Source: an uncultured Erythrobacter sp. (GTDB lineage Bacteria; Pseudomonadota; Alphaproteobacteria; Sphingomonadales; Sphingomonadaceae). Taken from it: 64,000 bases of DNA. Under the pieces are notes generated by a model, which searched no databases, was not told where the DNA came from, and saw nothing but the letters and a program-made list of their open reading frames with translations. Positions 416 to 55,715 of this stretch are shown here, piece after piece. The number at the start of each line of letters is the position of its first letter. The stretch's first letter is position 1. The stretch is taken from contig CANKYK010000001.1 in the NCBI GenBank assembly GCA_947488155.1, positions 682,001-746,000 on the forward strand. The letters run 5' to 3'. The position numbers were made by a program, and so were the translations under genes.

Positions 416-510
416 TCCGCACGCCCATCCGGGCGCGCGAACTCCTCGCTCATGCGGCCATAGGCCGCGTCGCTGCGGGCGGGCAGTCGCCCTTGCGGCT
501 GCTGCGCAGC
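416..510 (-). repeat. Structured dispersed repeat, copy 1 (tolQ-tolR gap)
   Basis: This copy fills the tolQ-tolR intergenic gap and lies in the same sense as the operon. Read on the minus strand it begins with the family signature around CCGCAAG and then folds into three hairpins: GGGC-GACT-GCCC (492-481), GCGGCC-TAT-GGCCGC (468-454) and a longer stem around the loop GGAT (441-416). The third stem contains pairs that are G-T on the minus strand but A-C on the plus strand, so it would pair only as minus-strand RNA. Related copies lie at 35015-35120, 35195-35310 and 55622-55715. Confidence 0.75.
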
Positions 511-34899: not shown

Positions 34900-35014
34900 C
34901 GGGGGCGACGCTCCTCTCTTAGGGGGTTTGTTGTACCATTTGATATGGGGAGCCGCGCGGGAATTTCGAGGGATTTCGGAAGGGGGAGTTTCGAGGCTTG
35001 GTCGCGGAGCACGG

Positions 35015-35120
35015 GTTTTTTGTTTGCGCCCTCAGGCGCCGGGCGCTCACATCCGTTCGCTTGGCTTTCGGCCTAACCGGCCGGCGCGCGGTCGCGCTTG
35101 CGGCTCGCTAATCGCTCGCC
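35015..35120 (-). repeat. Structured dispersed repeat, copy 4
   Basis: Read on the minus strand, the signature CCGCAAG is followed by the hairpin GCGC-GACC-GCGC (35097-35086). Next comes CGGCC-GGTTA-GGCCG (35083-35069), then a tail shared exactly over 24 bases with copy 2. A hairpin GCGCC/GGCGC and the end AAACAAA close the copy. Both internal stems differ in sequence from the other copies but keep their pairing. Confidence 0.75.
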
Positions 35121-35194
35121 GAATCATTCCAGAGGATAGATGTTGCTCCAAGATACTTGGTGCGCTTCCGTTGGCTTGGTCGCGGAGCACGGTT

Positions 35195-35310
35195 GCGTTA
35201 GCGACCGCAAGGGCCTTGCGCCCGCCCGCAGCGACGCGATCTATGATCGCGTGAGCGAGGATAGCCAAGCGAACGGATGTGAGCGCTGGCGCTTGAAGCC
35301 AAACAAAGAC
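35195..35310 (+). repeat. Structured dispersed repeat, copy 2
   Basis: After CCGCAAG it forms GGGC-CTTGC-GCCC (35211-35223) and CGCGATC-TAT-GATCGCG (35235-35251). It continues with GCGAGGAT, the shared 24-base tail (35263-35286), a short TGGC/GCCA stem and AAACAAA. It lies directly upstream of yaiI in the same sense, so it could be part of that gene's leader. Confidence 0.75.
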
Positions 35311-36603: not shown

Positions 36604-38661
<2,058 letters not shown>

Positions 38662-38704
38662 ATGCGATCACGATTAGTGTACGCGGGCGCCTGCGTCCAG
38701 TGCG

Positions 38705-55593: not shown

Positions 55594-55621
55594 ATGTTTG
55601 ACAGTCGATGGACCAATCGGT

Positions 55622-55715
55622 CGCGCAGCGACCGCAAGGCCAAGTGGCCGCCCACAGCGGTGCGGACTTGTCCGCAAACCGCGAGGATACCGCACGCTGG
55701 ATAGCGTGCGAAAGA
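55622..55715 (+). repeat. Structured dispersed repeat, copy 3
   Basis: After the signature CCGCAAG it forms GGCC-AAGT-GGCC (55638-55649), TGCGGAC-TT-GTCCGCA (55661-55676) and CGCACGCT-GGAT-AGCGTGCG (55691-55710). All are perfect stems. It lies between the S9 terminator and the convergent porin-like gene, and part of it touches the latter's stop codon region. Confidence 0.75.

Follow-up and report, generated by a model that had tools for sequence, protein, structure and literature searches.

Several kinds of small structured repeats have been described in bacteria. According to PMC3116915, REP sequences and REPINs, which are linked with RAYT, are dispersed, mostly extragenic and arranged as inverted doublets, and their compensated hairpins go with an inferred single-stranded intermediate. 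The CGTC-tagged repeats are alphaproteobacterial, form dimers and have no known dedicated transposase, as stated in PMC3733652. In PMC10969869, the Rickettsia palindromic elements (RPE) are small palindromic repeats that also occur in frame in protein genes, and ERIC and BOX are small intergenic repeats without a transposase of their own.

The repeat analysed here, in a 64-kb window (the whole stretch of DNA under analysis) of an Erythrobacter genome, behaves like REPIN, ERIC and RPE sequences and is not assigned to any of these families. It has four hairpins in about 100 nt, whereas REP/REPIN sequences are one short palindrome, as described in PMC3116915. It differs from the CGTC-tagged repeats, as described in PMC3733652, by the absence of a CGTC end, by its greater length and by its multiple hairpins. 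It is mostly intergenic, with one clear coding target found, and its resemblance to RPE, as these appear in PMC10969869, is one of kind; ERIC and BOX are found in other bacteria. Inverted doublets, a REP/REPIN trait, are present as recurrent minus-then-plus pairs within about 200 nt, and the RPE-type trait of in-frame insertion in a protein gene is present in yaiI of 5 genomes. GTAG, the mark of REP/REPIN ends, was found near the 5' end of 3 and in the 3' tail of 5 of 209 copies, and CGTC at the 5' end of 9 and in the 3' tail of 15 of the 209. As for a RAYT-type link, Y1_Tnp (PF01797) was detected in 5 of 41 same-genus genomes, including this one (27.9 bits, cut-off 23), as compared with the presence of the repeat in all 37 same-genus genomes sampled, and the 8 Y1 loci examined had no copy nearby (best E 0.15). 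RVT_1 was detected in 13 of the 41 genomes and not in this one; the searches for Y1_Tnp and RVT_1 revealed no parent IS of the sort that a MITE would have. Because of the GTAG, CGTC and RAYT results, we set the repeat apart from those families, among the small structured bacterial repeats. BOX repeats are modular. To our knowledge, the order of hairpins, the linkers and the loops of ERIC and BOX are unlike those of the Erythrobacter repeat.

Read on the strand that ends with GAGCGAGGATA, the unit consists of hairpins P2 (for example CGGTCGC-GCA-GCGACCG, then linker CAAG), P3 (GGGC-GACT-GCCC, then linker GCCCGCAGCGA), P4 (GCGACC-TTCA-GGTCGC, then linker TGAGCGAGGATA) and P5 (loop GGAT), the linkers between them being conserved. 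P5 is followed in many copies by an A-rich end such as GGAAAACAAAAAC; an alternative tail (type 2) begins GCCAAGCG. On the 5' side, a module with GCGGAGC or GCGGAGG (module A) was present in 48 of 209 distinct copies, and a module with GGAATGG, in this or a similar form, in 22 of them. Many copies are paired head to head in inverted orientation, a spacer separating their 5' modules, and others are single; by eye, some composites have the reverse order in close species at a shared site (L022 and L026 sites). The original prediction placed the repeat at four positions of the window, and it is indeed present at all of them. The stems that it listed are correct, but it overlooked P2, whose 3' arm terminates at the common CCGCAAG, and the 3' hairpin P5.

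Copy 1 lies between tolQ (a MotA_ExbB match) and tolR, which follows in the operon, and is on the same strand as tolQ. Its core (P2, P3, P4 and their linkers) occupies 441–512 on the minus strand and scored 93.6 bits with R1, a covariance model of three hairpins built from seven copies that include copies 1, 3 and 4 of the window; its P5 hairpin, CGCGCGCCCGGATGGGCGTGCG, extends over 418–440 (minus), as assessed from the sequence, its fold and the P5 pair counts in 66 copies. Copies 2 and 3 are the two inverted arms of one composite (about 34995–35300), which adjoins yaiI (DUF188). In the left arm, the core of copy 2 (35050–35121, minus) reached only 17.1 bits (E 0.039) with R1. It is a shortened P4 variant (CCGGCCGGTTAGGCCG), which is kept by close relatives (L246 and L244) and was found again within a gene, in the yaiI insert of L349. 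Its type-2 tail (35016–35049, minus) and the central module containing CCAAGATACTTGG (35122–35172, no strand assigned) were delimited by eye, as were comparable spacers in other inverted pairs. The right arm comprises the 5' module A of copy 3, GGCTTGGTCGCGGAGCA (35173–35189, plus), its core (35190–35263, plus, 85.9 bits) and its type-2 tail, GCCAAGCGAACGGATGTGAGCGCTGGCGCTTGAAGCC (35264–35300, plus). A free-standing 5' module, GGCTTGGTCGCGGAGCACGG (34995–35014, plus), is probably the remnant of another copy, on the basis of its sequence and of a comparison of orthologous sites; a copy is present at this site in G027 and G421. Copy 4 has a core at 55618–55689 (plus, 80.3 bits), with a P4 subtype that has an extended Watson-Crick base, and a P5 hairpin, GCACGCTGGATAGCGTGC, at 55690–55710 (plus; sequence, and fold of the copy with z -3.3). 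Only the loop and 3' arm of this P5 remain in L214. Further short inserts were noticed within single copies (L030, L032, L288 and L340), those of L032 and L288 having a stretch with TGAACGACCGA.

Searching the genome with R1 gave 52 places at E up to 1, 47 of them at E<0.01, and an anchor pattern of 20 fixed bases matched 8 places in the genome, as compared with 0 for the reversed pattern. These two results indicate that the repeat is not due to chance. In the bacterial family, 106 of the 298 sampled genomes had the repeat, as did 47 of the 96 genera; these figures are lower bounds because only 16 candidates were scored per genome. It was found in none of 24 genomes from other families of the order, and in a class-wide sample (12 candidates scored per genome) it was present in 4 of 385 genomes, all four of the same family; none of the sampled genomes outside the family had it. 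By TolQ, with 98% identity between the proteins, the nearest named genomes were those of two uncultured Erythrobacter isolates, 3-903-J and 4-610. At L066 (1316–1667), four copies stand head to tail with a spacing of about 90–107 nt. No named family had been recognised from the letters, and none in Rfam fits: in a search of eight repeat loci at E up to 5, the sole match was to a tRNA on the border of L007, and the match in the window, a TPP riboswitch, lies elsewhere. The latter (RF00059, 55.8 bits, 38542–38668, minus) abuts the start of a 647-codon ORF (36604–38547) and is ordinary. No description of this repeat family came up among open-licence full texts, PMC12306157, PMC2267715, PMC3733652, PMC3116915 and PMC10969869 included.

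The compensatory changes that had been proposed from four copies proved overwhelming in larger alignments, in two overlapping sets of copies. In an alignment of 110 distinct copies, 94.7% of the cells were paired, as compared with 75.9% when the 3' letters were shuffled, and 321 cells were changed on both sides, as compared with 93.6 in shuffles. Two-sided change occurred in all 18 modelled pairs, and the covariation score fell from 0.435 to 0.055 or less when the partner was shifted by 1–3 columns. The second, overlapping set gave the same picture; both alignments were fitted to R1, which favours the structure. P5, which is absent from the model, had a Watson-Crick pair at each of its positions in 45 to 65 of the 66 copies, and pairs of several types occurred.

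Within the pairs, G-T outnumbered A-C, by 47 to 9 in the first set and 46 to 21 in the second when counted by copy. When each distinct hairpin was counted once, the numbers were 34 to 4 and 33 to 10 in the two overlapping sets, distinct hairpins still sharing ancestry. The outermost modelled P4 pair was omitted from these counts, as it is not a real pair (unpaired in 53 of 96 copies). P5 had 32 G-T and 7 A-C cells, two positions supplying 30 of the 32. No such bias was observed at unpaired conserved control positions (C-to-T 26/909, G-to-A 29/1298) or in flanks (224 versus 222 in 27 ortholog pairs). This excess of G-T over A-C suggests that it is the folding of one strand that counts.

The site of copy 1 was compared across 79 usable tolQ-tolR loci, which are not 79 species since L112 and L123 come from one assembly, as do L120 and L141. 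The stop and start codons of the two genes abut or overlap at most loci. The repeat was present at 20 loci, another repeat at 8 and neither at 51 (the 'other repeat' and 'empty' labels being assigned by eye), and the 20 copies were sense to tolQ in 9 cases and antisense in 11, counting as sense L115, which has overlapping matches in both orientations. On a tolQ tree, drawn up without L139 since the contig ends there, a minimum of 15 changes is needed to explain the presence of the repeat, and 16 for the three-state label. One of the other repeats is palindromic (CGTCATTGCGAG..., in L127, L128, L136 and L149) and resembles the CGTC-tagged repeats described in PMC3733652. A third repeat, CGTTCG..TCGAGCGAAGTCGAGAC..., occupies the gap in L126, L150 and L175. 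At other sites too, occupancy differs between species that are about 90% identical. At the end of mipA, this genome and G421 have an intact copy, of which G420 retains only the P5 loop and 3' arm; at the L018 and L029 sites, the copy of this genome is in plus orientation, and G420 has another one, in minus orientation. Just upstream of one gene, in L069, L074, L075, L077 and L094, the repeat is found in both orientations in different genera. From the way its start reads, this gene is a putative hisH.

The coding target is yaiI, which was matched in 68 of 114 same-genus genomes. In five of these (G034, G391 and G407, with partial matches only, being left outside the five), the match was in two pieces, separated by an insert that keeps the frame, is 34 to 52 codons long and has no stops, at a common position between ...DG and F/Y-DAADD. 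By eye, P2 and the tail hairpin can still be recognised in the inserts; three of them have an unbroken P3, and in the other two (L346 and L348) a nested stretch interrupts it. R1 detected the insert in L347, L349 and L350 (E 3.9e-6 to 3.0e-5) and gave no match in L346 and L348. On the yaiI tree the insert needs 4 changes, at least 2 of them by starred branches; L348 has the insert and its sister L351 has none (branch support 86). The insert of L349 differs from those of L347 and L350 in P2, P3 and P4 and has an identical right border, which points to hairpin replacement or independent insertion. The nested stretch, of about 45 nt (GAAGTCGAAGACGCAGCTGGCCAAAGGCCACCTGC in L348), has a similar, reversed counterpart within P3 of L117, at tolQ-tolR, and may be a smaller mobile repeat. 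The repeat is also in frame in a 267-residue protein without a Pfam match (L352, at 1933–2011, L353 and L354), in versions that differ among three close species; this case is not counted as a coding insertion because no empty site was shown. No clean target-site duplication was seen by eye at tolQ-tolR or in yaiI.

The repeat has a covarying fold, is dispersed, and has been recurrently gained or lost at the same sites in both orientations. The transposition-like spread that had been suggested fits these data, since the copies at tolQ-tolR and in yaiI behave as insertions. The broader idea of selection on a fold, in RNA or in single-stranded DNA, is partly supported: it accords with the compensation, the G-T excess and the insertions, and either nucleic acid may be the one that folds, but a mutational process (template switching in hairpins, or exchange of hairpins between copies) could likewise maintain the complementarity of the arms. 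Our preferred reading, to which we give about an even chance, is that the repeat is mobile and non-autonomous, of the REP/ERIC/RPE kind, and needs a folded single strand in order to spread. One strand of this element of about 100 nt would fold into four hairpins with conserved single-stranded linkers, and an enzyme supplied in trans would read this fold as single-stranded DNA. Copies would be retained where insertion does little harm, i.e. in intergenic gaps, where stop and start codons abut, and within the reading frame of yaiI, and their hairpins may be exchanged or rewritten at the conserved linkers with pairing kept.

Evidence on how resident copies change was obtained from 29 orthologous sites, picked by their flanks alone from 45 pairs, each site being represented by one pair from two of three genomes (this one, G420 and G421); at some of them, one arm of an inverted composite may have been matched with the other arm. 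Differences amounted to 66/866 in stems (7.6%), 64/1092 in loops (5.9%) and 781/8947 in flanks (8.7%). Among 413 base pairs, 13 had a one-sided change and were still paired, 17 were broken, 12 had two-sided changes and were still paired, and none was two-sided and broken; with the model columns (418 pairs), 33 were two-sided and paired and 1 was two-sided and broken. These 33 lay in 18 of 78 hairpins and 13 of the 29 sites, with two or more in 9 hairpins. Two-sided changes almost always keep pairing, and the stems are not clearly slower than the flanks, so that nothing here points to the resident copies being under strong constraint. All 46 ortholog pairs that were aligned, out of 60 candidates, gave 7.5% for stems, 7.1% for loops and 8.3–10.7% for flanks, with 19 two-sided kept pairs. 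A hand-picked set of 27 of these 46 pairs, selected with identities known and including some sites twice, had yielded 3.7%, 4.4% and 8.9%, and 0 of 412 pairs two-sided and kept. The slow stems and missing compensation seen there are an artefact of that selection; both the full 46 and the flank-chosen set disagree with them.

The hairpins of one copy are nearly unlinked. Within a genome, distances between copies at one hairpin and those at another correlated with r from -0.18 to 0.20, with 4 of 18 comparisons at p<0.05 (22, 31 and 34 copies in three genomes), as compared with a mean r of 0.64–0.70 (5–95% range 0.27–0.91) for simulated clonal copying and about 0 for a star-like old burst; these analyses used the 87 copies, out of 137, in which all four hairpins could be delimited. 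Distance correlation was used in place of mutual information, which has little power because of the many single alleles, and the values of 0.63–0.76 between halves of one hairpin reflect pairing, not descent. In G420, one 22-base P4 hairpin is common to three copies in which P2, P3 and P5 all differ, and in G421 another P4 hairpin is common to four copies with four different P2, P3 and P5. Differences at orthologous sites often involve entire stems whose pairing is intact, and together with the unlinked hairpins this suggests hairpin replacement. A further proposal, which we regard as possible though doubtful, is that the hairpins are exchangeable cassettes: the linkers would be kept while whole hairpins are swapped or rewritten, in place and during movement, and self-complementary modules would reassort. 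Single-stranded DNA or RNA intermediates could then switch template at the linkers.

The same observations can be read as upkeep of palindromes by mutation, in which template switching at replication forks (quasi-palindrome correction) maintains the stems by copying one arm of a hairpin onto the other and there is no selection on a fold. This would account for covariation between the arms of a hairpin and not between separate hairpins, for several paired changes within one hairpin at orthologous sites, for stems that are not much slower than flanks, and for yaiI inserts at one codon that differ by whole stems. However, correction of arms does not explain the conserved linkers and the P5 loop, and correction acting on double-stranded DNA should not favour G-T over A-C in the way seen in both sets of hairpins. 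As a full explanation it is in our opinion unlikely, and it could act together with the spread of a mobile element through a folded single strand.

Less probable is the notion of a cis-acting RNA element, in which inserted copies serve as stabilisers, processing sites, attenuators or 3'-end elements of host mRNAs and selection on RNA keeps the fold. An excess of G-T is what an RNA fold would produce, several copies lie within operons, as at tolQ-tolR, and pairing survives two-sided changes at orthologous sites. However, the neighbouring genes show no preferred orientation: in 81 of 83 loci, co-directional neighbours had 22 sense and 26 antisense copies, and 19 gaps were convergent and 14 divergent, as determined with a rough gene caller and counting both arms of some composites. 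Both orientations also occur at one junction, tolQ-tolR, where most loci have no insert at all, and stems change nearly as fast as flanks. At two window sites, no promoter-like site was found, and the terminator-like sites (one at each) were within the range of shuffled sequences.

We hold it equally improbable that this is an old dispersed repeat that no longer moves, the differences between species being losses, conversions and rearrangements of ancient copies. In favour of this, no pair among the 37 distinct copies of this genome was 90% or more identical. In G420, 5 of 50 copies had such a partner, and in G421, 2 of 50, several of these copies being in arrays, and the median identity to the nearest paralog was 0.81–0.83; with near-identical copies so scarce, recent copying has not been caught. 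Partial deletions are also visible (e.g. L214 versus L215), and a star-like old burst would likewise yield unlinked hairpins. Yet opposite orientations or different copies at one junction in close relatives would need many losses or inversions, and the presence of the yaiI insert in L348 and not in its well-supported sister is likewise hard to reconcile with a repeat at rest. Two further candidates were rejected, namely plasmid or phage cargo, by the lack of a blastn match in plasmid and phage collections with one copy as query, and a terminator, as a GC hairpin with a T run, distinct from the repeat, adjoins copy 4, and copy 1 is within an operon.

The preferred reading of a mobile element that spreads through a folded single strand concerns a family-wide, strongly covarying repeat that is not named by Rfam or by the papers found. 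It provides a case, outside Rickettsia, of a repeat of this sort inserted in frame in a coding sequence. Its naturally filled and empty sites, at tolQ-tolR, yaiI and mipA, are test beds for the spread of bacterial palindromic repeats that have no known transposase and for the upkeep of stems. If the hairpins were indeed exchangeable cassettes, this would be a bacterial repeat with SINE-like behaviour, which would also add coding segments to proteins.
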